The notes beneath the pieces were generated by a model. The model was not told where the DNA came from and ran no database searches. It saw only the letters and a program-made list of their open reading frames with translations. The position numbers and the translations under genes are program-made. A stretch of DNA of 64,000 bases from Actinophytocola algeriensis (GTDB lineage: Bacteria > Actinomycetota > Actinomycetes > Mycobacteriales > Pseudonocardiaceae). Below, one piece after another: positions 40,463 to 54,271 of this stretch (positions are counted from its first letter, which is position 1; every line of letters begins with the position of its first letter). The stretch lies in assembly GCF_014203735.1 (NCBI RefSeq), contig NZ_JACHJQ010000003.1, positions 295,326-359,325 of the forward strand. Reading direction: 5' to 3'.

Positions 40463-41515
40463 ATGATCGATGACGACCGATTTCTGGGCTGCATCCTGGC
40501 GGGTGCGGTGGGGGACGCGCTCGGAGCGCCGGTCGAGTTCCTCACCATCGAGACCATCCGCCGCCAGTTCGGGCCGGACGGCACCACCGGCTACGAAGAG
40601 GAGTACGGCGGCCGCGGCACCATCACCGACGACACCCAGATGACCCTCTTCACCCTCGAAGGGCTCATCCGGGGCCACCGCGGCGAGCACGACGACTTGT
40701 TCGCGCCGATGCAGCACGCCTACCAGCGCTGGCTGCACACGCAGGGCATGGAGACGCGCTGGGCCGACAACGGCGGCGTGTTCGCCACGAAACCCGAACC
40801 GGACGGCTGGCTGATCACCAACAAGGGCCTGTTCGCCATGCGCGCCCCCGGCAACACGGTCACCCAGGCACTCCGCGCCTTCTCCCGCGGCCAGCCACGC
40901 GGCTCGTTCGACAACCGCCTCAACAACTCCAAGGGCTGCGGTGCGGTCATGCGTGTCGCGCCCTACGCACTGCTGGGCGACGACGCGTTCGCGTTCGCCG
41001 TCGGCAACGGCCTGCTGACCCACAGCCACCCGAGCGGCTACCTGTCCGCGGGCGCGCTCGCGCACCTGGTCCACCTGCTGCTGCAGGACGCCGCGCTGCC
41101 CGACGCCATCGCCGCCACCAGGGCGAAGCTGCTGACCTGGGACGGCCACGAGGAACAGGTCGCCGCGCTCGACGCCGCCGTGGCGCACGGCAGGCCGACG
41201 CCCGAGTCGATCGCCGAGAAGCTCGGCGGTGGCTGGACCGGTGAGGAGGCGCTCGCGATCGCGGTCGCCGCCGCGCTCGCCGCGGAGGACATGCGGGACG
41301 GGCTGCTGCTCGCGGTCAACCACTCCGGCGACAGTGACTCCACCGGCGCGATCTGCGGCAACCTCCTCGGCGCCATGCGGGGCACGGCGACGATCCCGCC
41401 GGAATGGCTGGCGGAGCTGGAACTGCGGGACGTGATCGAGCAGCTGACCAGGGACGCGCTCGCCGAGTTCGGTGACGCGCCCCCGGCCTGGGGTGACCGC
41501 TACCCGTTCACCTGA
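40463..41515 (+). CDS. ADP-ribosylglycohydrolase family protein
   Basis: A 350-residue protein of the DraG/ARH family. The N-terminus has G-C-I-L-A-G-A-V-G-D-A-L-G-A-P and T-D-D-T-Q-M-T near residue 54 (metal ligands). The C-terminus has N-H-S-G-D-S-D-S-T-G-A-I-C-G-N, the second metal-binding motif. Such enzymes remove ADP-ribose from proteins or small molecules using two Mg2+ ions; the target is unknown. The stop codon lies inside the first unit of a 31-bp repeat array. No ADP-ribosyltransferase gene is adjacent. Confidence 0.9.
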   Translation: MIDDDRFLGCILAGAVGDALGAPVEFLTIETIRRQFGPDGTTGYEEEYGGRGTITDDTQMTLFTLEGLIRGHRGEHDDLFAPMQHAYQRWLHTQGMETRWADNGGVFATKPEPDGWLITNKGLFAMRAPGNTVTQALRAFSRGQPRGSFDNRLNNSKGCGAVMRVAPYALLGDDAFAFAVGNGLLTHSHPSGYLSAGALAHLVHLLLQDAALPDAIAATRAKLLTWDGHEEQVAALDAAVAHGRPTPESIAEKLGGGWTGEEALAIAVAAALAAEDMRDGLLLAVNHSGDSDSTGAICGNLLGAMRGTATIPPEWLAELELRDVIEQLTRDALAEFGDAPPAWGDRYPFT

Positions 41516-41634
41516 GCGGAGCTTGCGGAGCGAACATCGTCCCTGAGCGGAGCATGTGGAGCGAACATCGTCCCTGAGCGGAGCTTGCGGAGCGAACATC
41601 GTCCCTGAGCGGAGCTTGCGGAGCGAACATCGTC
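41511..41634. repeat. Tandem array, 4 x 31 bp, GGAGCTTGCGGAGCGAA family
   Basis: Units start at 41511, 41542, 41573 and 41604, each CCTGAGCGGAGC followed by TTGCGGAGCGAACATCGTC. The second unit differs by a few bases (CATGT for CTTGC). The array fills the space between two convergent genes; it contains the stop of the upstream gene and touches the stop of the M20 gene at 41633. The same core is found in arrays at 43041-43100 and 52016-52147. Confidence 0.92.
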
Positions 41635-43120
41635 ACAGCGCCGACGCGTGGGCGTCCAGCAGGTGCGCCACCGACTCCGTGACGCGCTTGGCCTGCGGGA
41701 TGTGCAGCCACTCGTCCGGCACGTGCGGGTTGCTGTCGTTCGCCAGCGCGCCCGTGACCACGAACTGCGCCTTCGGGTACGCCTCCGCCAGTGAGCCCAT
41801 GAACGGGATCGACCCGCCGAGCCGCATGGTCTGCCACTGGCTGCCCGCGAACACGGTCTCGCTCAGCGAGTCCAGCGCGGACCGCAGCCACGGCGCGATC
41901 GGCGGCGCGTTCCAGCCCGGCCCCTCCTCCGGCGCGGAGAGCGTGACCTTCGCGCCGTACGGCACGTCGGTGGTCAGCACCCGCTCGACCGCGGCGAGCG
42001 CGGTCTTCGGGTCGGCCGTCGGCGGCAGGCGGAAGCTCAGCTTCAGCGTCGTGAACGGGCGCAGGACGTTGCCCGCGTCCTCCGGCAGCGGCAGGCCTGC
42101 CGCGCCGATGATCGACAGGGTGGGTCGCCACGAGTTGTTCGCCATCAGCTCGTAGTCGTCGTCCGACGCCGCGGACATGCCGTCGACCAGCGGGAACGCC
42201 GCCTTGGCCGCGCCGGGGGCGAGGTCGGCGAGGGCCTTCATCTCCGCGTCGCGCTCCGGCGGGATGGGGCCGTGCAGCTCGGGCAGCAGGATCTCGCCGG
42301 TGCGGGCGTCCTCGATGCGGTCCAGCAGCTGCCGCATGATCCGGAACGAGCTGGGCACGATGCCGCTCGCCGAGCCGGAGTGCTGGCCGGCGTCCATGAC
42401 GTGCACGGTCACCGTCGTCGACACGAGACCACGCAGCGAGGTGGTCAGCCACAGCCGTTCGTAGTCCTGGCCGCCGGAGTCCAGGCACACGACCAGCGAG
42501 ATGTCGCCGAGCCGCTCGCGGTACGCCTCGAGGTACGCGTCCAGGTCCGGGCTGCCGGACTCCTCGCTCAGCTCGAGCAGCACCAGGCAGCGCGCGTGCT
42601 TGCCGCCGGCGGCCTGCAGCGCCTCGATCGCGGCCGACGCCGAGTAACCGGAGTAGCCGTCGTCGGCGGCGCCGCGCCCGTACAGCCGGTCGCCGCGGAT
42701 GACCGGGGTCCACGGGCCGAGGCCCTCACCCCAGCCGCCGACCGGCGGCTGCTTGTCGAGGTGGCCGTACAGGAGGACGGTCCCGCCGTCCTCCGGCATG
42801 CCGTCGGACGCCGGCACGTCCATCAGCACCACGGGGGTGCGCTCGGGGAGGCGGAGGATCTCGACGGTCGCGCCGGGGATCGCGCGGGCGGCGAGCCAGG
42901 CGCGGACGTGTTCGGCGGCGGCGTCGAGGTGGCCGTGCTCGGCCCACTTCGCGTCGAACACCACCGACACGGCGGGGATCTTCACCAGCTCGGACAGGCT
43001 CGGCAGGATCTCCGCGTCCCATGTCCGTTCGACCGTTGAGCGGAGCTTGCGGAGCGAATCATCAGTCGTGCGGAGCTCGCCGAGCGAATCATCAGTCGTG
43101 CGTACCTGTGCGTTGTCCAC
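41633..43120 (-). CDS. M20 family metallopeptidase (dipeptidase)
   Basis: A 495-residue M20/M25/M40 peptidase. Metal ligands are recognised in V-L-L-Y-G-H-L-D-K-Q (near 107), R-G-A-A-D-D-G-Y (near 138) and E-L-S-E-E-S-G-S-P-D (near 172). The lid domain follows, and the last ligand His is in the C-terminal part. The usual substrate is a dipeptide or modified amino acid. The GTG start at 43120 is followed by two 10-residue repeats (R-T-T-D-D-S-L-x-x-L) encoded by the 30-bp repeat at 43041-43100, an N-terminal addition outside the peptidase fold. A 49-residue gene ends 17 bases upstream on the same strand. Confidence 0.9.
   Translation of the reverse strand: MDNAQVRTTDDSLGELRTTDDSLRKLRSTVERTWDAEILPSLSELVKIPAVSVVFDAKWAEHGHLDAAAEHVRAWLAARAIPGATVEILRLPERTPVVLMDVPASDGMPEDGGTVLLYGHLDKQPPVGGWGEGLGPWTPVIRGDRLYGRGAADDGYSGYSASAAIEALQAAGGKHARCLVLLELSEESGSPDLDAYLEAYRERLGDISLVVCLDSGGQDYERLWLTTSLRGLVSTTVTVHVMDAGQHSGSASGIVPSSFRIMRQLLDRIEDARTGEILLPELHGPIPPERDAEMKALADLAPGAAKAAFPLVDGMSAASDDDYELMANNSWRPTLSIIGAAGLPLPEDAGNVLRPFTTLKLSFRLPPTADPKTALAAVERVLTTDVPYGAKVTLSAPEEGPGWNAPPIAPWLRSALDSLSETVFAGSQWQTMRLGGSIPFMGSLAEAYPKAQFVVTGALANDSNPHVPDEWLHIPQAKRVTESVAHLLDAHASAL
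43041..43100. repeat. Tandem array, 2 x 30 bp, inside the M20 gene
   Basis: Two 30-bp units (43041-43070, 43071-43100) with core CGGAGCTTGCGGAGCGAATC and ATCAGTCGTG. The unit is a multiple of three and stays in frame in the M20 gene, giving R-T-T-D-D-S-L-G-E-L and R-T-T-D-D-S-L-R-K-L. It is the same family as 41511-41634 and 52016-52147. Confidence 0.9.
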
Positions 43121-43136
43121 TCCGGCGATACTGCCA

Positions 43137-43286
43137 CTACCAGGCGTCGCGCAGCACCGACGGCTCCGGCTCCGGCTCGGGCAGCTGGCGGGGGGCGATC
43201 GACGAGAGGATTTCCTCGGCCGCGTCCGCGGCCTCCTCCAGGGCAGCCTCGGCCCGTCGCACGCGCTCGTCTCGCCAGTCGGCCAT
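43137..43286 (-). CDS. Small protein (49 residues) upstream of the M20 peptidase
   Basis: The protein M-A-D-W-R-D-E-R-V-R-R-A-E-A-A-L-E-E-A ... ends in P-E-P-E-P-E-P-S-V-L-R-D-A-W. A helix (about 5-30, rich in Ala/Glu) is followed by a Pro-Glu repeat and a conserved-looking C-terminus. Coding character is strong (third-position G/C, ATG start at 43286), and the stop is 17 bases before the M20 GTG, so it is probably co-transcribed. It is unlike any family I know by name. It could modulate the peptidase (inference). Confidence 0.6.
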   Translation of the reverse strand: MADWRDERVRRAEAALEEAADAAEEILSSIAPRQLPEPEPEPSVLRDAW

Positions 43287-43716
43287 CACCCAAGGGTAGT
43301 TCGCCTCCGGCGGTCGTCGAGCGGAGACGACTACGATGGAAGGTGACGCAGATCACTTTCCATGCGCGAGTTGGTGAGCCGGACGCCGGAACCGGCGTCG
43401 CGCGGGTCAGCGGAACCCGCGACCGACGACTGCTCTGAGCTGCCGCGTTCACTGCCCGCCAGTAGGTGGTGACAGACCCGCCGATGAACGCCCTAATGTC
43501 GGTTGTCCTACGGTTTCCGCAGCTCAGCGCGTCGCGGACGCCAAGATGCCGACGTTCGGACCTCACCGGATCGAGCCAACGCATGCCAGGATGAACCCCG
43601 AAACCGTCAGTGCCAACGACGGTCGAGCCTCCCTTTACCCGGGCTGGTGGACCGCCGGTGGCGCGGCCGTGCGGACGCCACAAGCGAACGCCCGGCGTCG
43701 ACAACTAGGAGAACGA
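43287..43716 (+). promoter_or_regulatory. Long leader of the 2-oxoacid dehydrogenase operon with a CRP-like palindrome
   Basis: No gene is supported in this 430-bp stretch. At 43336-43363 is ATGGAAGGTGA-N6-TCACTTTCCAT (10 of 11 arm positions pair). Its centre GTGA-N6-TCAC is the form bound by CRP/FNR-family activators. The E1-alpha frame is open back to 43546, but the strong AGGAG at 43707-43711 marks ATG 43717. The rest shows no other clear motif. Confidence 0.5.
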
Positions 43717-44922
43717 ATGTCGTCCCCAGAACAGTGGACGCACCCGGAACCCGGCGTCGGACCGGCCGCCACCGCGGCCAAGCCGACCGCGGAGCAGGTG
43801 ATCGCCGGTTTGCGCGCAACGAGTGAGGGTGGCCCGGAGCTGGTGCAGCTCCTCACGCCGGAAGGCGAGCGGGTGCCCAACAGCCAGTGGGACCCCTACG
43901 TCTCCGACGTCACCGCCGAGGACCTGCGGAACCTCTACCGCGACATGGTCCTGACGCGGCGGGTCGACCGTGAGGCGAACGCACTGCAGCGGCAGGGCCA
44001 GCTCGGCATCTGGGTGCCGCTGCTCGGCCAGGAAGCCGCGCAGATCGGGTCCGGCCGGGCACTCAAACCGCAGGACATGGCGTTCCCGAGCTACCGGGAG
44101 CACGGTGTCGCGTGGACCCGTGGCGTCAAGCCGACGGAGCTGCTCGGCATCTTCCGCGGCACCGACCACGGCAGCTGGGACCCGCTCGCGAACCGCTTCC
44201 ACCTGTACACGATCGTCATCGGCAACCAGGTGCTGAACGCGGCGGGTTATGCCATGGGCCAGCGCTTCGAGGGCAAAGTCGGCGACGACGACGGTGAAGC
44301 CACGATCTGCTACTTCGGCGACGGCGCGACCTCGCAGGGCGACGTGCACGAGGGCTTCGTGTGGGCGTCGGTGTACGACGCGCCGCTCGTGTTCTTCTGC
44401 CAGAACAACCAGTGGGCCATCTCAGAGCCCACCGAACGCCAGTCGCGGCTGCCGCTCTACCAGCGTGCCCGCGGCTACGGCTTCCCCGGCATCCGCGTCG
44501 ACGGCAACGACGTCCTCGCGACCCTGGCCGTGTCCCGCTGGGCGCTCGACGAGTGCCGCCACGGCAACGGCCCGGTCCTGATCGAGGCGTTCACCTACCG
44601 CATGGACGCGCACACCACGACCGACGACCCGACGCGCTACCGGCTGTCCGACGAGCTGGAGGCGTGGAAGTTGAAGGACCCGATCGAGCGGGTACGCGTG
44701 CACCTGGTGCGGCACATGGACACCGAGAACGAGTTCTTCGACCAGGTCCAGGACGAGTCGGACCAGCTCGCGGCCGAGCTGCGCGAGTTCTGCCAGAACA
44801 TGCCGGAACCGCCTCCGGGGCGGATGTTCTCCGAGGTCTACGCGGAGGGCAGCCCGGTGCTGGATGCGCAGCGCGACGCCTACCTCGAGTACGCGGCCGG
44901 GTTCGATGGAGGTGAGCACTGA
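43717..44922 (+). CDS. 2-oxoacid dehydrogenase E1 component, alpha subunit
   Basis: A 401-residue thiamine-diphosphate-dependent E1 alpha. The ThDP motif G-D-G-A-T-S-Q-G-D-V-H-E-G (near residue 195) and N-N-Q-W-A-I-S (near 228) are present, and the phosphorylation-loop region reads Y-R-M-D-A-H-T-T-T-D-D-P-T-R-Y. The partner E1 beta starts in a TGATG overlap with its stop. Substrates of this type in actinomycetes are branched-chain 2-oxoacids or pyruvate; sequence alone does not decide. AGGAG before ATG 43717 fixes the start. Confidence 0.92.
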   Translation: MSSPEQWTHPEPGVGPAATAAKPTAEQVIAGLRATSEGGPELVQLLTPEGERVPNSQWDPYVSDVTAEDLRNLYRDMVLTRRVDREANALQRQGQLGIWVPLLGQEAAQIGSGRALKPQDMAFPSYREHGVAWTRGVKPTELLGIFRGTDHGSWDPLANRFHLYTIVIGNQVLNAAGYAMGQRFEGKVGDDDGEATICYFGDGATSQGDVHEGFVWASVYDAPLVFFCQNNQWAISEPTERQSRLPLYQRARGYGFPGIRVDGNDVLATLAVSRWALDECRHGNGPVLIEAFTYRMDAHTTTDDPTRYRLSDELEAWKLKDPIERVRVHLVRHMDTENEFFDQVQDESDQLAAELREFCQNMPEPPPGRMFSEVYAEGSPVLDAQRDAYLEYAAGFDGGEH

Positions 44923-45944
44923 TGGCGGCGCCAGTCATGAACAAGTCAGCGGAGTCGCCCAGGACGAGCAGCCAGACCGTCACCCTGGGCAAGAGCCTGA
45001 ACCTGGGCCTGCGTGCCGCCATGGAGGCGGACCCGAAGGTCATCGTCATGGGCGAGGACGTCGGCAAGCTCGGCGGCGTCTTCCGAATCACGGACGGGCT
45101 GCAGAAGGACTTCGGTGAGCAGCGCGTGCTGGACACGCCGCTCGCGGAGTCCGGCATCATCGGCACGGCGGTGGGTCTCGCGATCCGCGGCTTCCGGCCG
45201 GTGTGCGAGATCCAGTTCGACGGGTTCATCTTCCCCGCGTTCGACCAGATCGTGTCGCAGGTGGCGAAGCTTCGGTTCCGCAGCCAGGGCAAGATCAACC
45301 TGCCGATGGTGATCCGCGTGCCGTTCGGCGGCGGCATCGGCGCGGTCGAGCACCACTCCGAGTCGCCGGAGTCGTACTTCGCGCACACCGCCGGCCTCAA
45401 GGTCGTGTCGTGCTCCAACCCGGTCGACGCCTACTGGATGATCCAGCAGGCCATCCGGTGCGACGACCCGGTGCTGTTCTTCGAGCCGAAGCGGCGGTAC
45501 TACGAGAAGGCGGAGCTGGACTTCGACGCGAAGCCGGAGCCGCTGTTCGCGTCGCGGGTGCTGCGCAAGGGCACCCACGCGACCATCGCCACGTACGGCC
45601 CGATGGTGAAGACGTGCCTGGAGTCGGCGGCCGCCGCGGCCGAGGAGGGCAAGGAGCTCGAGGTCATCGACCTGCGTGCGCTGTCCCCGATGGACCTGAC
45701 GCCCGTGTACGACTCGGTGCGCCGCACCGGTCACCTGGTGGTCGTGTCGGAGGCGCCTGGCGAGGCGTCGCTGTCGTCGGAGATCGCCGCGCGGGTGCAG
45801 CAGGAGTGCTTCTACTCGCTGGAGGCGCCGATCCTGCGCGTGACGGGCTTCGATGCCCCGTACCCGCCGTCGAAACTCGAGGAGGAGTTCCTCCCCGACC
45901 TCGACCGGGTGCTGGACGCCGTCGACCGTTCGCTGGGCTGGTGA
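44922..45944 (+). CDS. 2-oxoacid dehydrogenase E1 component, beta subunit
   Basis: A 340-residue transketolase-type beta subunit: V-M-G-E-D-V-G-K-L-G-G-V-F near residue 45, E-I-Q-F-D-G-F-I-F-P near 90, and the C-terminal domain with A-T-I-A-T-Y-G-P-M-V. It forms an alpha2beta2 E1 with the gene upstream. The ATG overlaps the previous stop by one base; an in-frame ATG 15 bases later (M-N-K-S-A-E-S-P) is an alternative. The E2 gene starts 3 bases after the stop. Confidence 0.93.
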   Translation: MAAPVMNKSAESPRTSSQTVTLGKSLNLGLRAAMEADPKVIVMGEDVGKLGGVFRITDGLQKDFGEQRVLDTPLAESGIIGTAVGLAIRGFRPVCEIQFDGFIFPAFDQIVSQVAKLRFRSQGKINLPMVIRVPFGGGIGAVEHHSESPESYFAHTAGLKVVSCSNPVDAYWMIQQAIRCDDPVLFFEPKRRYYEKAELDFDAKPEPLFASRVLRKGTHATIATYGPMVKTCLESAAAAAEEGKELEVIDLRALSPMDLTPVYDSVRRTGHLVVVSEAPGEASLSSEIAARVQQECFYSLEAPILRVTGFDAPYPPSKLEEEFLPDLDRVLDAVDRSLGW

Positions 45945-45947
45945 GGC

Positions 45948-47270
45948 ATGCCTGACTTCAAGGTCTTCCCCCTGCCCGACACGGCAGAGGGGCTGGTCGA
46001 CGCCGAGATCCTGACCTGGCACATCAAGCCGGGGGACGAGGTCAAGGTCAACCAGATCATCGTCGAGATCGAGACGGCCAAGGCGGCGGTCGAGCTGCCG
46101 TGCCCATGGGCCGGTGTGGTCACGGAACTGCACGCCGAGCCCGGCCAGACGGTCAACGTGGGCGCGCCGATCGTGACGATCGACGTCGACCCGGGTGGTG
46201 CCGCGGCGCCTGCCGCTGCCGCCGCCCCTGCTCCGGCTGCCGAGAGCAACGGGCAGGCCATGCTCGTCGGCTACGGCCCCAAGGCGTCGACGGCGAAACG
46301 GCGGGCCCGCAAGGACACGGCTCCGGCTCCGGCCGCGCCGGTCGCCACCGCCCCGCCGCCACCGGTCGCCAAGCCGGTCACCGTGCCGGACTCGCCCGCC
46401 GCGCTGCTGGAGCCGTCGGCCCTGGTGCCGCTGGCGAAGCCGCCGGTGCGCAAGCTGGCCAAGGACCTGGGCGTCGACCTGCGGTCGCTGGCCGGCTCGG
46501 GCGTGATCACGCGCGAGGACGTCGAGCGCGCGGCCCACGGTGCGGTGACCCCGGTCCCGGCCCCGGTCGCGTCCGGCGACCGCGAGCGGCGGGTCCCGGT
46601 CAAGGGCGTGCGCAAGATGACCGCGCAGGCCATGGTCGAGAGCGCGTACTCGGCGCCGCACGTGACCGAGTTCCTGACGGTCGACGTCACGCCGATGATG
46701 GAGCTGCGTGCGCGCCTGAAGACGCACCCGTCGTTCCGCGACGTCAAGATCACCCCGCTCACCTTCGCCGCGAAGGCCGTGTGCCTGGCGGCGAAGCGGA
46801 CGCCGGACGTGAACGCGACGTGGGCGGGCGAGGAGATCGTCTACAAGGACTACGTGCACCTGGGCATCGCGGCCGCCACGCCGCGCGGCCTGGTGGTGCC
46901 GAAGATCCGCGACGCGGACGGGATGTCGCTGCGGGAGCTGGCCGAGGCACTGGAGCAGCTGACGGTGACCGCCCGGAACGGCAAGACCACCCCGGCGGAC
47001 ATGCTCCACGGCACGATCACGATCACCAACGTCGGTGTGTTCGGTGTGGACACCGGCACGCCGATCATCAACCCGGGTGAGTCCGCGATCCTCGCGCTCG
47101 GCGCGATCAAGGACATGCCGTGGGTGGTGGACGGCGAGATCAAGGTGCGGAAGGTGTGCCAGCTGTCGCTGAGCTTCGACCACCGGGTGGTCGACGGCCA
47201 GCAGGGTTCACAGTTCCTCGCGGACGTCGGCGCCATCATGGCCGACCCCGCCATGGCCATCACGTTCTGA
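45948..47270 (+). CDS. 2-oxoacid dehydrogenase E2 component (dihydrolipoamide acyltransferase)
   Basis: A 440-residue E2 with three domains: an N-terminal lipoyl domain with lipoyl Lys in E-T-A-K-A-A-V (near residue 45), a Pro/Ala linker, then the E1/E3-binding domain (R-K-L-A-K-D-L-G-V-D-L-R-S-L-A-G-S-G near 170) and the catalytic core with F-D-H-R-V-V-D-G (near 413). The alpha-beta-E2 order with no E3 gene is typical of actinomycete branched-chain (bkd-like) clusters; E3 would be shared. The last 63 bases overlap the 3' end of the convergent membrane protein gene. Confidence 0.94.
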   Translation: MPDFKVFPLPDTAEGLVDAEILTWHIKPGDEVKVNQIIVEIETAKAAVELPCPWAGVVTELHAEPGQTVNVGAPIVTIDVDPGGAAAPAAAAAPAPAAESNGQAMLVGYGPKASTAKRRARKDTAPAPAAPVATAPPPPVAKPVTVPDSPAALLEPSALVPLAKPPVRKLAKDLGVDLRSLAGSGVITREDVERAAHGAVTPVPAPVASGDRERRVPVKGVRKMTAQAMVESAYSAPHVTEFLTVDVTPMMELRARLKTHPSFRDVKITPLTFAAKAVCLAAKRTPDVNATWAGEEIVYKDYVHLGIAAATPRGLVVPKIRDADGMSLRELAEALEQLTVTARNGKTTPADMLHGTITITNVGVFGVDTGTPIINPGESAILALGAIKDMPWVVDGEIKVRKVCQLSLSFDHRVVDGQQGSQFLADVGAIMADPAMAITF

Positions 47271-48539
47271 TCGGTGGGGCGTGCCCTCCGGGGCACGCCC
47301 CTTCCAGAACCGTTCCGGCACAGGAACATCCACCTCGGCGTTCCGGGCGTCGATCCGCCGCATATCGAGCCAGGGGTGCCGCGGCTCGGCCGACGTGATA
47401 CGCAGCACGCTCTCCTCCAGCACGAGGTCCCGGAGCACCACCCGTCCGTGCTCCGTGAGGATGTCCACCAGCGACACGGGCGACTTCTCCATCACGCACT
47501 CGACGAGGTGGAGAGTGCCGAGCGACGGCCCGTGCCCGCGGCTGAAGAGCTGGTTGAACCAGTCTCGTTCGTCCCACAGCGCCCCGAACTGGCCGTACTG
47601 GAAGTCTGCGGGGGCGTTCTGGAACACGCAGTTGTCGAACCGGAGCGTGCCCGAGTCGACCACGATCTTCCGCGCGGTGATCGGCCGCTCGAAGACGCAG
47701 TGTTCGAACTCGACCCGGCCACCGCGCACTCGCAGATCGTTCAGGTTGAGCGCCGAGCCGAACACGGTGTGGTGGAACTCGACTCTGCCGAGGAAGCGTG
47801 CCTCGTGGAAGTCGGTCAGGCTCGCCGCGAACTCCCCGTCGTGGCAACGGAGTGTGCCCAGGAACTCCGCGCCCGCGAAGGATGTCCGCTCGCCTCGGAA
47901 GACCACGTCGTCCAGCGTCACGGTGCCGCGGAAGGTGAACCCCCCGAAGTCCATGTCGATCAGCTTCATGCCGGTGAAGTCGAAGTCGGCGTCGCACCAG
48001 GGGGAATCGCCGGTCAGGCGTTCGCGGAACAGCCGGAACACCGTGTCCACGACCTCGCCCCCGCGCGATCCGGACAGCCGCAGGTAGGCGATCAGGACTT
48101 CCACGCACTTCTGGCGGCCGTCGTCCCAGTCGTCCGCGAGGCCTGCCAAGGCATAGACGCCCGCGAGGCGGACCTGGTCGCTCTCGTGGGCCAGTTGTTC
48201 GGCCGCCGCGGCGAAGCGTTCGTTGAGGAGCTTGGACTTCTCGCGTTCCTCCTGCCGCAGCGCCAGGCGGTGGTCGCCCTCGGCGACCTTCTGTTTGCGG
48301 TGGTTGACCGAAAGGAGCACCACACCGCCGAAGCCCGCGATGACCGCCAGGACGATCTTCAGCAGCTCGATCGTGTCGGCCGCGGTGAACGTCGCCGACC
48401 TCGGCAGGCCCGGCCAGCCGAACGCCCACAGCAGCAGTGTGCTCGTGCCTGCGCCGACCAGCAGCGCCACGACGACCCAGCCCAGGATGGACAGTGTCAT
48501 CGAGCCCGCCGAGGCGTCGGCGTGGTCTCGGGGTCTCAT
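47208..48539 (-). CDS. Pentapeptide-repeat-like membrane protein
   Basis: A 443-residue protein. Two transmembrane helices at the start (about 14-40 and 52-80) are followed by a soluble helix rich in Glu/Arg/Lys and by a solenoid-like region (about 180-400) with pentapeptide-type A-[DN]-[LF]-x-x spacing (D-F-D-F-T-G, A-G-A-E-F-L-G, H-E-A-R-F-L-G). It overlaps the E2 gene by 63 bases and contains the E2 terminator hairpin (47276-47301) in its own 3' end. The true stop may therefore be a late read-through. It is unlike the large solenoid protein at 26917-29145 except for general plan. The function is unknown. Confidence 0.7.
   Translation of the reverse strand: MRPRDHADASAGSMTLSILGWVVVALLVGAGTSTLLLWAFGWPGLPRSATFTAADTIELLKIVLAVIAGFGGVVLLSVNHRKQKVAEGDHRLALRQEEREKSKLLNERFAAAAEQLAHESDQVRLAGVYALAGLADDWDDGRQKCVEVLIAYLRLSGSRGGEVVDTVFRLFRERLTGDSPWCDADFDFTGMKLIDMDFGGFTFRGTVTLDDVVFRGERTSFAGAEFLGTLRCHDGEFAASLTDFHEARFLGRVEFHHTVFGSALNLNDLRVRGGRVEFEHCVFERPITARKIVVDSGTLRFDNCVFQNAPADFQYGQFGALWDERDWFNQLFSRGHGPSLGTLHLVECVMEKSPVSLVDILTEHGRVVLRDLVLEESVLRITSAEPRHPWLDMRRIDARNAEVDVPVPERFWKGRAPEGTPHRSERDGHGGVGHDGADVREEL
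47276..47301. terminator. E2 terminator hairpin inside the convergent gene
   Basis: GGGGCGTGCCC / GGGCACGCCCC, an 11-bp perfect stem with loop TCCG, just after the E2 stop. On the minus strand the stem encodes part of the last residues of the membrane protein (around G-R-A-P-E-G-T-P). Confidence 0.85.
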
Positions 48540-48579
48540 CGACCCCGCAGCCTACCGACGGCCGAGGCCCGCGACTCCC

Positions 48580-49194
48580 CTATTGGGCGGGCCGGGGGAG
48601 GTCGAAGTAGTTGATCAGGCCGGCCGCGAACGCGATGTCGCCCTTCACCTTCACCTTGCCGCGCATGAACAACATCGCGACGTTGACGCTGCCCGTCACC
48701 GCGCGCAGGAAGTCGGTCGGGGACAGGGTCAGCGTGACGCGGGCGTCGGCGGTCGGGGCCTGGCCGGACGTGCACGTGCCGTTGTCGATCACCGTCTCGT
48801 AGCGGTCGTAGCCGCCCGCGCCCGCGCCGCCCGACAGGCGCCAGTGCACGACCGCGCTCAGCGAAGCCGCCTTCACCGGGTCCAGGTGCTCGCCCATGCG
48901 CCGGAAGATCTCCTCGAACACGACCAGGCGCAGGTGCGGGTGGGTCATCAGGTGTTCCAGCTGTGTGGTGGACGCCCTGGAGACGAACCAGACGAACGTG
49001 TCCGTGCGCATCGCGGCCAGCTCGATGCCCGTGCCGACGCGACCGAGCATGTCGAGGACGTCGATCAGCTGCACGAACTGTTCCTCGTCGAGCCGCGCCG
49101 GGTCGACCGCGCGGGCGAACGCGTCGATGTCGACCGTGCTCTCGACCACCGGACTGCTCAGCGTCGAAGCCCCCGATTTGCGCCTGAATCGCAT
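48580..49194 (-). CDS. SCP2 sterol-binding-like protein
   Basis: A 204-residue protein. The C-terminal half follows the SCP2 fold (D-A-R-V-T-L-T-L-S-P-T-D-F-L-R-A-V-T-G and L-F-M-R-G-K-V-K-V-K-G-D). The N-terminal half is a helical extension of unknown role. SCP2 domains carry lipids or acyl-CoA. The gene is divergent from TetR, and their gap holds the operator TACTGGCGGGTA at 49208-49219. The start is ATG 49194. Confidence 0.8.
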   Translation of the reverse strand: MRFRRKSGASTLSSPVVESTVDIDAFARAVDPARLDEEQFVQLIDVLDMLGRVGTGIELAAMRTDTFVWFVSRASTTQLEHLMTHPHLRLVVFEEIFRRMGEHLDPVKAASLSAVVHWRLSGGAGAGGYDRYETVIDNGTCTSGQAPTADARVTLTLSPTDFLRAVTGSVNVAMLFMRGKVKVKGDIAFAAGLINYFDLPRPAQ

Positions 49195-49207
49195 GTTCCA
49201 CCTTATC

Positions 49208-49219
49208 TACTGGCGGGTA
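49208..49219. promoter_or_regulatory. TACYSRCKRGTA operator between SCP2 and TetR genes
   Basis: TACTGGCGGGTA lies 14 bp before the SCP2 start and about 80 bp before the TetR start. It matches the operators at 21544-21579 and 54318-54329. A TetR gene beside its own operator is the common arrangement. Confidence 0.65.
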
Positions 49220-49292
49220 ACGCTACGTTCGACTCTGTACCCTGGCAAGGATTGATCGAACCGCAGGAGGATCGGCGACCGTGGAGAAGAGT

Positions 49293-49319
49293 GTCTGATG
49301 GATCACTCCGCAAGCTCCG
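49293..49319 (-). repeat. Single repeat unit carrying the TetR start codon
   Basis: On the minus strand the sequence reads CGGAGCTTGCGGAGTGATCC followed by ATCAGAC. This matches 43041-43067 at 23 of 27 positions. The ATG of TetR (49298-49300) is inside the unit, and the first residues M-D-H-S-A-S-S-V come from it. Confidence 0.75.
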
Positions 49320-49954
49320 TTCACGAGCGGCGGCGGGTCAAGCGACTGCCGCGCGAGGTTCGGGAGCGGCAGATCCTCGACGCCGCGGTCCGGGTGTTCT
49401 CCGACCACGGCTACCACAACGCGTCGATGGACGAGATCTCCGAGGTCGCGGGCGTCTCCAAACCGATGATCTACGCCTACCTGGGTTCGAAGGAAGACCT
49501 CTTCGCCGCGTGCATCCACCGCGAGGCCACGCAGCTGCTCGAAGCCGTCGCCGCCGGGGTGCGCACGGAGTTACCCGCCGACATGCAGTTGTGGCACGGG
49601 CTCGGCGCGTTCTTCGAGTACGTCGGCGCGCACCGGGAGAGCTGGCGGGTCCTGCACCGCCAGGCGATCTCCCAGGGTGGGCCGTTCTCCGAGGAACTCC
49701 TCGACATGCGCCGCCAGGCGATCAGCCTGGTCGACACGCTCCTGGTCCGGGTCGCCACCAAGGAAGGCCTTGACCGCGGCGCCACCGAGTCGCTCGCCGC
49801 CGCGCTGGTCGGCGCGGCGGAGTCGCTCGCGGACTGGTGGCTCGACAACCCCGACGTGCCGAGCCGGGCGGTCGCGTCGCGGCTCATGAACCTCGCGTGG
49901 ATCGGCTTCGGCGGGCTCGTCGAGGGCAACACCTGGCACCCCAGCGAGGACTAG
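49298..49954 (+). CDS. TetR family regulator (candidate acyl-CoA regulon repressor)
   Basis: A 218-residue TetR. The helix-turn-helix begins R-L-P-R-E-V-R-E-R-Q-I-L-D-A-A near residue 17, with G-V-S-K-P-M-I-Y-A-Y-L-G-S-K-E-D near 52. The C-terminal ligand-binding domain is helical. The first 12 residues come from a short dispersed repeat and are not part of the TetR fold. The operator TACTGGCGGGTA lies 80 bp upstream and recurs before fadE5 and between fabG4 and fadA2, which suggests this protein controls them in response to acyl-CoA. The link is inferred from shared sites. Confidence 0.85.
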   Translation: MDHSASSVHERRRVKRLPREVRERQILDAAVRVFSDHGYHNASMDEISEVAGVSKPMIYAYLGSKEDLFAACIHREATQLLEAVAAGVRTELPADMQLWHGLGAFFEYVGAHRESWRVLHRQAISQGGPFSEELLDMRRQAISLVDTLLVRVATKEGLDRGATESLAAALVGAAESLADWWLDNPDVPSRAVASRLMNLAWIGFGGLVEGNTWHPSED

Positions 49955-49990
49955 GCAGTCCGCCTCCCCGCATTCGAAAGTGTTGGCGCC

Positions 49991-50476
49991 CTAGTTCCTC
50001 TCCAGGCTGGTCAGCAGCCTGCGCAGCAGGTCGGCCAGGGCAGCGCGGTCCTCGTCGTTCAGCTCGGCGAGGATCCGGTGCTCGTTCGCCACGTGATCGG
50101 GCAGCGCGCGGTCGATCGCCGCGCGGCCTTCGTCCGTCAGTGACACGTGCACGACCCGCCCGTCCTTCTGGCTCGGCGTCCGCGCGACCAGACCACGGGC
50201 CACGAGCCGGTCCAGGCGTTGCGTCACCGCGCCGGAGGTGATCATCGACGAGCGCATCAGTTCGGCGGGGGTCAGCGGCCGGTCGTTGCGCCGCAGGGTC
50301 GCCAGCACGTCGAACGACGAGCGGTCCAGGTCGTGCTCGCCGAACGTCCGCTGCAGCTCCGTGTCGACCAGCCGGGCGAGCCGCGAGAGCCGCCCGATCA
50401 CCCCCATCGGGGAGGCGTCGAGGTCCGGACGGACCGCCGCCCACTGCTCGAGCACCGAGTCCAGGTGGTCACCCAT
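49991..50476 (-). CDS. MarR family regulator
   Basis: A 161-residue MarR protein with the winged helix (D-V-L-A-T-L-R-R-N-D-R-P-L-T-P-A-E-L near residue 55, and D-R-L-V-A-R-G-L-V near 88) flanked by dimerisation helices. It is divergent from the EamA transporter gene, with three sites of the form CTTAGYGNTRAG between them. It probably represses itself and the transporter, with release by a small molecule. Confidence 0.9.
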   Translation of the reverse strand: MGDHLDSVLEQWAAVRPDLDASPMGVIGRLSRLARLVDTELQRTFGEHDLDRSSFDVLATLRRNDRPLTPAELMRSSMITSGAVTQRLDRLVARGLVARTPSQKDGRVVHVSLTDEGRAAIDRALPDHVANEHRILAELNDEDRAALADLLRRLLTSLERN

Positions 50477-50485
50477 GCCGACACC

Positions 50486-50548
50486 TTAGCGGTGAGATAA
50501 CTCCTTGCCATGTCTCTTAGCGATGAGATATTTTACCTTAGTGCTAAG
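50486..50548. promoter_or_regulatory. Three MarR-type operator sites
   Basis: CTTAGCGGTGAGATA (50486-50500) and CTTAGCGATGAGATA (50517-50531) are near-identical and 31 bp apart (three helical turns). CTTAGTGCTAAG (50537-50548) is palindromic. They cover the gap between the MarR and EamA genes, including the possible EamA start codons. Confidence 0.65.
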
Positions 50549-51437
50549 CAACCGCCTTCTGGTCACCGCCATCGCGCCCGCGGTCTGGGGCACGACATAC
50601 CTGGTCACCAGCGAATTCCTGCCTCCGGACCGCCCACTGCTCGCGGCGGTCGTCCGTGCCCTCCCGGCCGGACTCCTGCTCATCGCGTTCACCCGCAGGC
50701 TCCCGGCCGGCGACTGGTGGTGGCGCGCGCTCGTTCTCGGCACGCTCAACATCGGCGCGTTCCTGGCGCTGTTGTTCATTGCCGCCTACCGGTTGCCCGG
50801 CGGGGTGGCGGCCACGGTCGGCGCGGTCCAGCCGGTGCTCGTGGGGGCGCTCTCCGCGGGTCTGCTCGGCGAACGGCTGCGGACCCGCACGGTCGTGGCC
50901 GGTGCGGCCGGGATCGCGGGTGTCAGCCTGCTCGTACTGCGTGCCGACGCGCGGCTCGACGCACTCGGGGTCACGGCGGCGTTGGGTGGTGCGGTCGTCA
51001 TGGCGCTCGGGGTCGTCCTCGCGAAGCGGTGGCGTTCGACGGCGCCGGTGCTCGCCACGACCGGCTGGCAGCTCACCGCGGGCGGGCTCGTGCTGGTGCC
51101 GCCGTTGCTGCTGTTCGAGGGCCTGCCGTCGACCGTGACCGGGACGAACATCGCCGGCTACGTCTACCTGTCGACCATCGGCGCGGCGGTCACGTACTCG
51201 TTGTGGTTCCTCGGCATCCGGGCCCTGTCGCCGGTGAAGGTCACCTTCCTGACCCTGCTCAGCCCGCTCGTCGCCACCGTCCTCGGCTGGGCGGTGCTCG
51301 GCCAGGGGCTCACGGCCCTGCAACTGGTCGGCGCGCTGCTCGTGCTGTCCGCCGTCCTCGCTCCCCAGCTCGTGAAGGAGAAGAAGCCATGCGCATCACC
51401 GTGTTCGGCGCCACTGGTGCCGTCGGTCGCGAAGTAG
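50541..51437 (+). CDS. EamA family transporter
   Basis: A 298-residue DMT-superfamily transporter with about ten helices in two EamA halves (A-P-A-V-W-G-T-T-Y-L-V near the start and G-A-A-V-T-Y-S-L-W-F-L-G in the second). I chose GTG 50541, since homologous proteins begin close to N-R-L-L-V-T; ATG 50523 is possible. Both lie inside MarR operator sites. It probably exports a metabolite or drug under MarR control. Confidence 0.85.
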   Translation: MLSNRLLVTAIAPAVWGTTYLVTSEFLPPDRPLLAAVVRALPAGLLLIAFTRRLPAGDWWWRALVLGTLNIGAFLALLFIAAYRLPGGVAATVGAVQPVLVGALSAGLLGERLRTRTVVAGAAGIAGVSLLVLRADARLDALGVTAALGGAVVMALGVVLAKRWRSTAPVLATTGWQLTAGGLVLVPPLLLFEGLPSTVTGTNIAGYVYLSTIGAAVTYSLWFLGIRALSPVKVTFLTLLSPLVATVLGWAVLGQGLTALQLVGALLVLSAVLAPQLVKEKKPCASPCSAPLVPSVAK

Positions 51438-51982
51438 TCGCCGAGGCACGCGCCCGCGGCCACGAGGTCCGGCCTGCCAGCCGCTCGGCCGGCGTGGACG
51501 CGACCGATCCCGCGCACGTCGCCCGGCTCGCCGCCGGCCAGGACCTGGTGATCAGTGCGACCCGGCCGCAGCCGGGGCGGGAACCGGAACTCGTGGCCGT
51601 CGCCCGTGCGTTGTTCGCCGGACTGCGGGGCAGCGGGACGCGGCTCCTGGTCGTGGGCGGTGCCGCCACGTTGCGCACGCCCGGCGGGTTCCTCGTGCAG
51701 GACGCGCCGGACTTCCCGGCCGCGCTGGTGCCGATCGCGAACGCGTGCGCCGAGCAGCTCGCGGTGTGCCAGGAGCAGTCCGATGTGGACTGGGCCTACC
51801 TGAGCCCGCCCGCGCTGCTCGAGCCGGGACCACGCACGGGCCACTACCGGCTGGGCGCGGACGACCTCATCGCGGACGAGTCGGGCACGTCCCGCATCAC
51901 GAACGCCGACCTGGCCGTGGCACTGCTCGACGAGGCCGAGCGGCCGAAGCACCACCGGACCCGCTTCACCGTTGGCTACTGA
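51389..51982 (+). CDS. NAD(P)-binding NmrA/epimerase-like protein
   Basis: A 197-residue Rossmann protein. The N-terminal nucleotide loop G-A-T-G-A-V-G-R is at residues 7-14, followed by A-S-R-S, a sign of NADP(H) preference. AGGAG lies before ATG 51389. It overlaps the EamA gene by 49 bases in a different frame, so the genes are co-transcribed. It is probably a small oxidoreductase or redox sensor. The 3' end overlaps the convergent HtdX-like gene by 17 bases. Confidence 0.85.
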   Translation: MRITVFGATGAVGREVVAEARARGHEVRPASRSAGVDATDPAHVARLAAGQDLVISATRPQPGREPELVAVARALFAGLRGSGTRLLVVGGAATLRTPGGFLVQDAPDFPAALVPIANACAEQLAVCQEQSDVDWAYLSPPALLEPGPRTGHYRLGADDLIADESGTSRITNADLAVALLDEAERPKHHRTRFTVGY

Positions 51983-52937
51983 TGGTCCCCGTCAGGTGCG
52001 GCTTCCCGTTCTTCGCGGAGCTTGCGGAGCGAACATCGGGCACAGTCGCGGAGCTTGCGGAGCGAACATCGGGCACAGTCGCGGAGCTCGCGGAGCGAAC
52101 ATCGGGCACAGTCGCGGAGCTCGCGGAGCGAACACCGGGCACAGTCGCGCCGAACAGGTCGAACGTCCAGCCGTCGCCGTCCTCGCGCGCGGTGAAGGCG
52201 ACCTTCGCCGGTAGCAGCACGGGCAGCTTGAAGGCCACGTCGACGGTGTACGCGTCGGGCAGCCTGCCCTCGAACGCCGCGAGGCAGCGGGCCTTCGTCC
52301 ACATGCCGTGCGCGATCGCACGCGGGAAACCGAACATCTTCGCGGTCAGCTTGTACAGGTGTATCGGGTTGCGGTCGCCGGACACGTCGCCGTAGCGGCG
52401 GCCGATGTCGTCGGGTACGCGCCAGATCGCGGTCGGGGCGGGAGGTTCGGTCCGCTCCGACCTCTCGGGCCGGCCCGTGCCACCGCCGCGGCGCAGGTAG
52501 GTGGACACGTCGGTCCACACGACCTCGCCGTCCACCAGCGCCTCGCCGACCACGTCGAACTGGCGGCCGCGCGGGTGGTCGCGGAGGTTCTCCAGGTGCA
52601 CACGCAAGTCATACGACTCGCCGACGCGCAGCGGCCGGGTCTGCGTGATCCTGTTGGCCACGTGCACGGAGCCGACCAGCGGGAACGGGAAGTCGTCGCC
52701 CGCCATCAGCTTGATCTGCAACGGGAACGTGAGCAGGTGCGGGTAGGTCGACGGCAGCTCGTCGGAGAGGCGAAAGCCGCAGACCCGGTTGTAGGCGGCC
52801 AGGTGCGCGGGGTCGGTGCGCACGCCGGACAGCGTGTACACGGTGTCCGGCAGCTCACCGCCCTTGCGCCGGAAGCCGGTGAGCACGGCCTTCGGGTACA
52901 GGACGCGGAGGCTGGGCGGGGAGGACAGCTCGACCAT
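51966..52937 (-). CDS. htdX: MaoC-like (3R)-hydroxyacyl-thioester dehydratase, HtdX-like, with added C-terminal repeats
   Basis: A 323-residue double hot-dog protein. The second half holds the hydratase 2 motif in D-V-S-G-D-R-N-P-I-H-L (catalytic Asp and His). It probably dehydrates (3R)-hydroxyacyl-CoA or -ACP in fatty-acid elongation, as for mycobacterial HtdX next to FabG4. The last 55 residues are unusual: four units of about 11 residues (G-V-R-S-A-S-S-A-T-V-P-D type), encoded by the 33-bp repeat array at 52016-52147, and a short tail. The fold should end near residue 266. ATG 52937 overlaps the fabG4 stop; GTG 52940 is an alternative. Confidence 0.85.
   Translation of the reverse strand: MVELSSPPSLRVLYPKAVLTGFRRKGGELPDTVYTLSGVRTDPAHLAAYNRVCGFRLSDELPSTYPHLLTFPLQIKLMAGDDFPFPLVGSVHVANRITQTRPLRVGESYDLRVHLENLRDHPRGRQFDVVGEALVDGEVVWTDVSTYLRRGGGTGRPERSERTEPPAPTAIWRVPDDIGRRYGDVSGDRNPIHLYKLTAKMFGFPRAIAHGMWTKARCLAAFEGRLPDAYTVDVAFKLPVLLPAKVAFTAREDGDGWTFDLFGATVPGVRSASSATVPDVRSASSATVPDVRSASSATVPDVRSASSAKNGKPHLTGTISSQR
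52016..52147. repeat. Tandem array, 4 x 33 bp, inside the HtdX-like gene
   Basis: Units start at 52016, 52049, 52082 and 52115: CGGAGCTTGCGGAGCGAACA followed by TCGGGCACAGTCG. The 33-bp length keeps the reading frame and yields 11-residue repeats in the minus-strand protein. It has the same core as the 31-bp array at 41511. Confidence 0.92.
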
Positions 52938-54271
52938 CACGCCCCCAGGAGGCTCTGGCCGCACACCCGCACGACGTTGCCGTTGACCGCGGCCGACGCG
53001 GGACTCGCGTACCAGGCGATGGTCTCGGCGACGTCCACCGGCAGCCCGCCCTGCTGCAGGCTGCTCATGCGACGGCCCGCCTCGCGGATGAACAGCGGGA
53101 CGGCCGCGGTCATCTTGGTCTCGATGAACCCGGGCGCGACCGCGTTGATCGTGGCCCCGCGCTCGGCGAGGACCGGCGCGTACGCGTCGACCATGCCGAT
53201 CACGCCCGCCTTGCTGGTGCCGTAGTTGGTCTGCCCGTTGTTGCCCGCGATGCCCGCGATCGAGGAGACGCCGATGATGCGACCGTTCGGCCTGAGGACG
53301 TCCTCGGCGAGCAGCGCGTCGTTGGCGGCGAGCTGGCTGGAGAGGTTGACCGCGAGGACGGCGTCCCAGGCGGTGTCGGACATGTTGGCGAGTCGCTTGT
53401 CCCGCGTGATGCCCGCGTTGTGCACGACGATGTCGACGCCGCCGTGCCGTTCGCGCAGGTACTGGACGAGCTGCGCGGGTGCCGTGTCGGCGGTGATGTC
53501 GAGCTGGAGCGCGGCGCCCTTGATCCTGTTGGCGACGTCGGACAGCTCTGCGCCCTGCGGGGGGATGTCGAGCGCGACGACGTGCGCACCGTCGCGGGCC
53601 AGCACCTCGGCGATGGACGCGCCGATCCCGCGCGACGCCCCCGTGACGAGGGCGACCTTGCCTGCGAGCGGCCGGTCCCAGTCGTCGGGCACCACGGTTT
53701 CGCCGCCGTGGGTGCCGATACGGATGACCTGCGCGTCGACGAACGCCGACTTGGCGGAGAGGATGAACCTCAGTGTCGACTCAGCCGCGGCCTCGTGCCC
53801 GGGCGCGACGTAGACGAGCTGGACGGTGGCGCCCTTGCGCAGTTCCTTGCCTACCGAACGGGTGAACCCTTCGAGCGCCCGCTGTGCCACGGCGTCCCGG
53901 CCGCTGCCCGACGGCGGCGTGCCGAGCACGACGAGCCGGGCGCAGGTGCCGATCCTGCGCATGAGCGGGTGGAAGAAGTCGTACAGCTCGCGCAGCCTGG
54001 CTGGGTCGTCGATGTCGGTGGCGTCGAAGACCAGCGCGGCGTAGCGGTCGGCTGTGTCGTCGTCGCGGGCGACCTCCTCGGCACCGATGGCCGTGAGCAC
54101 CGCGTGGACGGTGTCGGCGAGCCTGCCTTTGCCGCCGACGAGCGCGGGCCCGTCGAGCGCCGGCGCGCCGGGCTCGTGGCGCCGCAGCGGCGTCGGATCG
54201 GGCAGTCCGAGGCGGCGGACGAGCTGCCGACCGAGGCCGGACCGGGCAAACTGCTGGTAGCGGTCGGACAT
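52937..54271 (-). CDS. fabG4: 3-oxoacyl-ACP reductase, FabG4-like
   Basis: A 444-residue two-part SDR. The first half (about 1-205) is a degenerate Rossmann domain. The second half has V-T-G-A-S-R-G-I-G, N-A-G-I-T-R near residue 295, and the catalytic Tyr and Lys in Q-T-N-Y-G-T-S-K-A-G near 366. This length and order match mycobacterial FabG4, an NADH-dependent 3-ketoacyl reductase. It is co-transcribed with the HtdX-like gene and divergent from fadA2, with the operator CCTACTCGCGAGTAGG in between. The ATG at 54271 fits the conserved start M-S-D-R-Y. Confidence 0.92.
   Translation of the reverse strand: MSDRYQQFARSGLGRQLVRRLGLPDPTPLRRHEPGAPALDGPALVGGKGRLADTVHAVLTAIGAEEVARDDDTADRYAALVFDATDIDDPARLRELYDFFHPLMRRIGTCARLVVLGTPPSGSGRDAVAQRALEGFTRSVGKELRKGATVQLVYVAPGHEAAAESTLRFILSAKSAFVDAQVIRIGTHGGETVVPDDWDRPLAGKVALVTGASRGIGASIAEVLARDGAHVVALDIPPQGAELSDVANRIKGAALQLDITADTAPAQLVQYLRERHGGVDIVVHNAGITRDKRLANMSDTAWDAVLAVNLSSQLAANDALLAEDVLRPNGRIIGVSSIAGIAGNNGQTNYGTSKAGVIGMVDAYAPVLAERGATINAVAPGFIETKMTAAVPLFIREAGRRMSSLQQGGLPVDVAETIAWYASPASAAVNGNVVRVCGQSLLGA

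Follow-up and report, generated by a model that had tools for sequence, protein, structure and literature searches.

A dispersed mini-cistron-like repeat of Actinophytocola algeriensis, probably non-autonomous and built like mycobacterial MIRUs, whose left end forms tandem arrays

A 64,000-nucleotide stretch of the Actinophytocola algeriensis genome (contig NZ_JACHJQ010000003.1, positions 295,326 to 359,325; hereafter the window) carries a short core repeat in three tandem arrays with units of 30, 31 and 33 bp, and as a single unit at the start of a TetR-family gene. The core was found to be the left end of a longer element that is dispersed over the genome. From its position on stop and start codons, the small open reading frame (ORF) that it carries, the compensatory changes in its hairpin, the empty sites in related genomes and the period classes of its arrays, all of them read from sequence, we consider it likely that this family is a dispersed, probably non-autonomous element working in the manner of the mycobacterial interspersed repetitive units (MIRUs), that is, as a mobile mini-cistron.

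Results

Dispersal of the core repeat and layout of the full element

The window held 11 core matches with up to three mismatches, against a mean of 0.35 in dinucleotide shuffles, and none of 100 shuffles reached 11. A preliminary description of this DNA had proposed a scan of the whole genome (G000), and the scan revealed that the core is by no means confined to the window: 324 matches with up to two mismatches were obtained, split 202 to 122 between the two strands, compared with 9 for the reversed pattern, while the exact core occurred 107 times against 0 for its reverse. The density was uneven, and 15 stretches (300 kb) that had not been selected for matches held 2 of them at up to two mismatches, where about 10 were predicted from the genome mean. 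Within the family, the exact core was present in 31 of 390 genomes (one genome per species, as in all comparisons) and in 3 of 46 genera, namely Actinophytocola (5 of 6 genomes), Pseudonocardia and, with one genome, Amycolatopsis arida.

Detailed counts were made on the window plus 98 other stretches of G000, together 1.49 of 9.73 Mb and mostly match-selected, which contained 129 core clusters. Many single cores shared a common layout, in which RTGA (R, purine) was followed by GCGGAGCTTGCGGAGCGAA, by about CCATCGGGCACAG (in a long form GGGCGACCGCGAGCGG), by a hairpin with the loop GGAGCCTGCGAG and again by RTGA. The RTGA-to-RTGA distance of this longer element was mostly 65 or 77 bp, with 74 and 62 bp also occurring. 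Twenty-five full copies of 60-84 bp were aligned (alignment A1) and used to build a covariance model, R1, which gave 133 matches at E ≤0.001 among 150 candidates scored in G000; the 66 best of these (E ≤1e-8, 60-93 bp, not each inspected) outranked the first recognised array unit. In the window only derivatives and no full element were found, which is why the 65/77-bp element had escaped the preliminary description.

Position on stop and start codons and the coupled mini-ORF

In 48 of 67 RTGA-class clusters, and in 11 of 27 clusters of the C/T-TGA class, the TGA of the element was the one predicted to terminate the upstream gene; the same was true of 126 of 3042 other TGAGC sites taken as a control. 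When the ORF opened by the RTG was followed through the element, its stop overlapped the start of an ORF of at least 80 codons in 39 of 49 mechanically paired ends (p = 4e-11, with chance taken as 1/3). These overlaps had the form ATGA or GTGA, apart from two TAATG/TAGTG and one TTGA; among the 10 pairs that failed, six were mis-paired inside arrays and one reached a 79-codon ORF, one codon short of the threshold. The mini-ORF, which starts on the upstream stop, comprised 21-27 codons and would encode a peptide of the type [M/V]SGACGANHR..GACEGES (typical examples being VNGACGANHRAQGDRERLPGACEGES and MSGACGANHQAPWPFGACEERP). Two of the peptides were searched against Pfam and no family was obtained.

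A chain test gave a similar picture, since 59 of 66 RTGA(A/G)C clusters reached an ORF of at least 80 codons, eight through in-frame fusion and 51 via one or more mini-ORFs. For comparison, 418 element-free genes ending in RTGA were followed in the same way: 241 directly overlapped the next ORF, 56 reached it via mini-ORFs and 121 did not reach it. With the eight fusions left out, 51 of 58 clusters were thus connected via mini-ORFs, versus 56 of the 177 element-free genes without direct overlap. The coupled-stop mini-ORF was also observed in other genomes, in 26 of 32 matches from 21 hand-picked loci; the six remaining matches comprised four in family f15, where the match was offset from RTGA, and two in A. 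arida, where the frame was broken.

Covariation in the 3′ hairpin

The 3′ half of the element was predicted to fold into an 8-bp hairpin, whose 3′ arm ends in A1 at the downstream start codon or a few bases before it. GAGG was located at the edge of the loop in A1, and GAGG or AGGAG stood 5-7 nt ahead of the downstream start codon. Across the 25 copies, 45 doubly changed cells were counted compared with 14.5 in shuffles, and the covariation score was 0.537 versus 0.201; sliding one arm by 1-3 columns brought the score to at most 0.115. By a weaker measure, five pairs were changed on both sides against 3.0 in shuffles, a value reached in 11 of 500 of them. The score was 0.557 versus 0.168 for 31 matches at 25 further loci, which belong to several genera and whose alignment was fitted to the model. 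As judged from these alignments, the hairpin is conserved as a structure with compensatory changes. A Rho-independent terminator was dropped by eye, no T run being present in A1. No match to one full element was obtained in phages and plasmids at E 1e-5.

In A. oryzae, the 3′ part that follows the copies at five loci (L098, L100, L123, L139 and L154) is longer and contains a second core-like motif (GCGGAGCCTGCGGAGCG) flanked by inverted arms.

Empty sites and distribution among genomes

An mce-type operon of A. algeriensis (L078, with Mce4_CUP1/MlaD genes) carries full elements at four gene junctions. The five other genomes of the genus (G040-G044, hereafter the relatives) were without the element at these four junctions, and at the first of them G041 carries an element of a different, degenerate kind. 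In place of the insertion, the relatives showed RTGA at sites 1 and 2, ATGA or TGATG at site 3 and TAGTG or TGATG at site 4. At the second site, for example, G041 reads CATGAGCAGC, and G000 reads CTCGTGA, the element and then CATGACATTC. Because the sequences have diverged, an exact target-site duplication is not claimed for these sites.

R1 matches were obtained in 35 of 390 family genomes (12 of 46 genera) at E 1e-5 and, at E 1e-4, in 56 of 397 genomes sampled from the order (19 of 85 genera); in these surveys the E-values are rough, at most 12 candidates were scored per genome and the weakest matches may be due to chance. The order is that of the genome collection, which holds Pseudonocardiaceae and a family f8 together, and NCBI places Actinophytocola in Pseudonocardiales. 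We take f8 to be Mycobacteriaceae because a MIRU motif occurs there, in 11 of 301 genomes that all belong to one genus.

Whole elements were also found in tandem. In G040 (L239, contig C16, 328152-328525), five full elements follow each other with a period of 74, each sharing ATGA with the next, so that this locus is a natural variable-number tandem repeat (VNTR) of the whole mini-cistron; two tandem copies each were present in G041 and G607. Three genomes of family f15 (L227-L229) contained relatives of about 80 bp with GCGAGCGGAGCGAGCGAA, a different 3′ part and an RTGA end, two of which were adjacent in L228.

Among the matches listed, several pairs of loci could be compared. L079:9787 (minus-strand coordinate) and L234 (in G012, from another genus of the family) hold different subtypes at apparently the same gene junction, which could reflect repeated use of the site or else an insertion of old date. 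L264:2574 and L214 (G041, A. oryzae) carry the element at the same junction with middles of different length, and some insertions may therefore predate the split of the species. A TTCGC-class unit together with both its flanks (L050:10342) showed 86-89% nucleotide identity to L113 of Jiangella endophytica (NZ_QVAI01000015.1); this sharing across orders (Jiangellales) looks like horizontal transfer of the unit-carrying locus.

Tandem arrays of the left end and their periods

The sampled 1.49 Mb contained 50 arrays. Two of them (the rows of L054 and L263) proved to be right halves of full elements and were removed ahead of the period counts, leaving 48 arrays of 2-6 units with periods mostly of 29-33 bp. 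Where periods were mixed the commonest was counted, and for L066:10023 the period was taken as 39 bp from the spacing of exact cores, the alternative of 30 bp to a weak unit being likewise a multiple of three. The spacers were 96% identical within arrays and 55% identical between arrays of the same spacer length, indicating that each array expanded locally from one founder. Clustered regularly interspaced short palindromic repeats (CRISPR) were dropped by eye, as the spacers are constant within an array.

The periods differed with the surroundings of the arrays. All eight arrays inside genes had periods that were multiples of three (0 mod 3). Among 12 arrays at stop/start junctions, seven were 0, four were 2 and one was 1 mod 3, so that 11 of 12 avoided 1 mod 3, whereas the 28 arrays elsewhere comprised 18 of 1 mod 3 (31 bp), seven of 0 and three of 2 mod 3. 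A period of 1 mod 3 was accordingly seen in 1 of 20 translated arrays versus 18 of 28 others (p = 2.5e-5). Junction arrays of 32 and 29 bp formed chains of overlapping mini-ORFs (L043, L047 and L265), and several 33-bp junction arrays were in-frame N-terminal extensions (L041, L048, L069 and L247). Of the 15 array rows that start with RTGA, among them the two rows that are full elements, 13 kept the chain. On these comparisons, the left end of the element expanded locally to give the 29-33-bp arrays, whose period follows translation.

These counts bear on the preliminary description, which had proposed that coding arrays, but not non-coding ones, obey a multiple-of-three rule. The rule holds for the in-gene arrays, but 7 of the 28 other arrays and 7 of the 12 junction arrays are multiples of three as well, and the contrast of coding with non-coding periods is refined into one in which operon junctions use 0 or 2 mod 3 (11 of 12). 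Active copying with selection against frameshifts had also been suggested. The part on reading frames agrees with the in-gene periods and with the in-frame insertions in the M20 and MaoC-like genes described below; the part on copying does not, the spacer identities (96% and 55%) indicating that units were not imported singly.

Loci of the window

The three arrays and the unit at the TetR start were confirmed as real and lie where they had first been placed. The relevant features are as follows.

40463..41515, plus strand: ADP-ribosylglycohydrolase gene (PF03747); its TGA stop at 41513-41515 doubles as the first TGA in the 31-bp array
41511..41634, plus strand: array 1, 4 x 31 bp, CTGAGC class, between convergent genes and beginning on the upstream stop codon
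41633..43120, minus strand: M20-family peptidase gene (PF01546, PF07687), with array 2 near its N-terminus
43040..43102, plus strand: array 2, 2 x 30 bp, antisense to the M20 gene
49281..49325, minus strand: single unit of the GTGAAC class in inverse orientation at the TetR start, with the core match at 49302-49318 of the minus strand
49298..49954, plus strand: TetR-family regulator gene (PF00440, PF21943), its called start codon lying inside the inserted unit
51966..52940, minus strand: MaoC-like gene (PF01575), a Pfam match
52013..52149, plus strand: array 3, 4 x 33 bp, TTCGC class, antisense to the MaoC-like gene

Array 1 is untranslated according to the gene calls, and in the empty-site comparison none of the five relatives gave both of its flanks adjacent to each other. 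Array 2 forms a 60-bp (20-codon) in-frame insertion that was missing from all five relatives in alignment; when the flanks were measured, the difference was 60 in three relatives, 61 in G041 and 0 in G043. Array 3 is a 132-bp insertion of 44 codons, read in frame as four repeats of TVP(D/G)VRSASSA between FGA and KNGKPHL. The flank method failed for this array in all five relatives and a protein comparison was used instead, in which the FGA and KNGKPHL parts were contiguous in five of five relatives, which thus have no array 3. The gene had been labelled HtdX-like, and this label gives way to its Pfam match, MaoC_dehydratas.

At the TetR gene, GTG at 49281 opens a five-codon ORF whose TGA overlaps the TetR ATG at 49298 (TGATG), and an inverse unit was likely inserted at the native start of the gene. 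The comparison on which this reading rests was clean in G041 only, less exact in G042 and G043 and restricted to the right side in G040, G044 allowing no comparison.

Discussion

Comparison with known elements

According to passages of a 2025 review (PMC12548453), MIRUs appear to be mobile, insert at start codons and carry an ORF coupled to the gene at -4 nt, while text of a 2014 paper (PMC4213456) gives lengths of 77 and 53 bp and confines them to M. leprae and the M. tuberculosis complex. Excerpts of a further paper (PMC2734929) relate the length of a tandem repeat upstream of fpg1 to fpg1 expression in M. tuberculosis. Set beside these passages, the element resembles MIRUs as a short (50-100 bp) dispersed unit at stop/start overlaps between co-directional genes, with its own coupled mini-ORF, with tandem copies sharing a junction codon and with lengths of 2 mod 3 (77 and 53 bp in MIRUs; here 65 and 77 bp in most cases, with 74 and 62 bp as further lengths). 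It differs from them in its internal sequence, in its covarying 8-bp 3′ hairpin and in its host genera.

Six MIRU-type loci were examined for the same features. In two of them, three copies were recognised that are bounded by RTGA on either side, recur with a period of 50 or 53 and carry a coupled mini-ORF, and the remaining four loci did not fit that search for ends and periods. We know of no left-end satellites of 29-33 bp in MIRUs. In architecture the element therefore appears to be a sister type to MIRU, and R1 does not match the MIRU copies. The preliminary description knew no named element of this type; MIRUs, being built alike, contradict this as far as the kind of element is concerned, and the parts of the open-licence literature on actinobacterial repeats, MIRUs and coupled short ORFs that were covered held no description of the element itself.

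Rickettsia palindromic elements (RPEs), as presented in passages of PMC2229807, are single units of 105-146 bp with terminal inverted repeats, whose ORFs are fused in frame in host protein genes. The in-frame insertions found here (60 bp in the M20 gene, 132 bp in the MaoC-like gene and 66 bp at L075) recall these, but they consist of tandem 30/33-bp units without inverted ends as seen by eye, and not of a 105-146-bp palindrome. Many short dispersed copies with a hairpin are typical of intergenic palindromic repeats, such as repetitive extragenic palindromes and the mosaic elements that contain them (REP/BIME) or enterobacterial repetitive intergenic consensus (ERIC) sequences. The element shares this property with them (ERIC is tabulated in PMC2229807), but its main class lies on stop and start codons, is oriented with the genes and encodes a coupled ORF. 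The arrays, for their part, are head-to-tail and homogeneous like minisatellites or VNTRs; unlike these, they have as founder unit one end of a dispersed element, and their period is tied to the reading frame.

Proposed mode of action

A ribosome ending the upstream gene would re-initiate on the mini-ORF, whose RTG overlaps the upstream TGA; while translating it, the ribosome would open the hairpin and then re-initiate on the downstream gene, the hairpin in this way making the downstream start depend on the mini-ORF. Such passage of ribosomes through the element would keep its insertion cheap. Mobility, presumably with an enzyme acting in trans, would account for the empty sites and the dispersal. 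The left end would have been multiplied by local tandem duplication, presumably through slippage, to give the 29-33-bp arrays. Translated arrays would be held at 0 mod 3 within a gene or mini-ORF and at 2 mod 3 where overlapping mini-ORFs form a chain, and untranslated arrays would be free in period, mostly at 31.

Several observations weigh against this interpretation. None of the 35 clusters outside the TGA classes begins on a predicted stop, and TTCGC-class and in-gene units lie off stop/start junctions, so that a second insertion route is needed for them. The chain is broken in 7 of 66 clusters. ORFs of 80 codons are frequent by chance at 71% G+C, which makes the chain test weaker than its p-value suggests, and for this reason the comparison with element-free controls outweighs the p-value. 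Further pair types in the hairpin numbered 14 versus 12.8, a value reached in 153 of 500 shuffles and hence not above chance, and for the L068 insertion a clean difference of 66 bp was seen in two of the five relatives, the other three being irregular. No terminal inverted repeat (by eye) and no moving copy was found, and no transposase turned up, none having been searched for; the case for mobility therefore rests on the empty sites and the dispersal. Finally, the 1.49 of 9.73 Mb sampled were mostly picked because matches were present, and the genes are predictions of a simple in-house caller, on which the split of the arrays into junction, gene and other depends.

Alternative explanations

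It is possible, though we think it rather unlikely, that the short units were spread between arrays by template switching at microhomologies (TTCGC or TGAGC) and not by a transposase. The in-gene array of L075 would fit such a process, as its 66 bp are absent from all five relatives and are flanked by TTCGC on either side, the relatives having a single TTCGC (two of five) or TTGGC (three of five) at this site; moreover, the M20, MaoC-like and L075 insertions are all multiples of whole units. However, the spacers differ between loci and no array was seen that could have served as donor of an identical spacer, and the target-site duplication of a transposase would look identical.

Somewhat more doubtful is that the element is a true MIRU sharing an ancestor with those of mycobacteria. 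Its RTGA at both ends, its coupled-stop mini-ORF, its period of 2 mod 3 and its tandem copies would all be expected, RTGAGC begins both, and GAGGAGCGGC stands near the right RTGA in both. The internal sequence differs, however, and R1 did not match the MIRU copies in the six MIRU-type loci, its best hit (E 0.047) beginning at a MIRU edge.

Replication slippage producing ordinary minisatellites, each from local sequence and with no dispersed element, would account for the spacer identities of 96% within and 55% between arrays and for 48 arrays of 2-6 units, but it is improbable as the whole explanation, because the core is common to 324 places, single units and full 65/77-bp elements occur, and relatives are without the whole insertions. 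The empty sites refute it as a full account, and it remains the best account of array growth. Least probable of all is a regulatory RNA or ribosome-binding hairpin retained for operon regulation and not mobile: the compensatory changes in the hairpin and the Shine-Dalgarno-like loop edge beside the start codon speak for it, but the element is present in one species where the relatives are without it, the model has 66 matches in one genome, copies stand in tandem, and five element loci outside the window, full elements included, gave no Rfam match at the gathering score other than a tRNA.

Beyond the mini-cistron as such, we see an even chance that a superfamily of mobile mini-cistrons extends across the order to which both Actinophytocola and the mycobacteria belong, MIRUs being its best-known branch. 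Its portable cassettes for translational coupling would comprise a start codon set on the upstream stop, an ORF of 20-30 codons, a hairpin that contains the ribosome-binding site of the following gene, and a stop codon overlapping the start of that gene. In Actinophytocola and Pseudonocardia, the left end would have become a self-propagating satellite whose repeat length is coded by translation (0 mod 3 in frame, 2 in a chain, 1 mainly where untranslated).

Significance

Array-encoded N- or C-terminal extensions and shifted starts, such as those of the M20, MaoC-like and TetR genes, are insertions that the relatives lack and should not be annotated as conserved parts of the proteins. Persistence of this dispersed element seems to require that ribosomes pass through it. 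With this family, the MIRU mode of existence would be extended to genera for which the covered parts of the literature gave no description of it. The link between repeat length and translation is testable, and a single genome offers, in its dozens of inserted elements and arrays, natural experiments on translational coupling.

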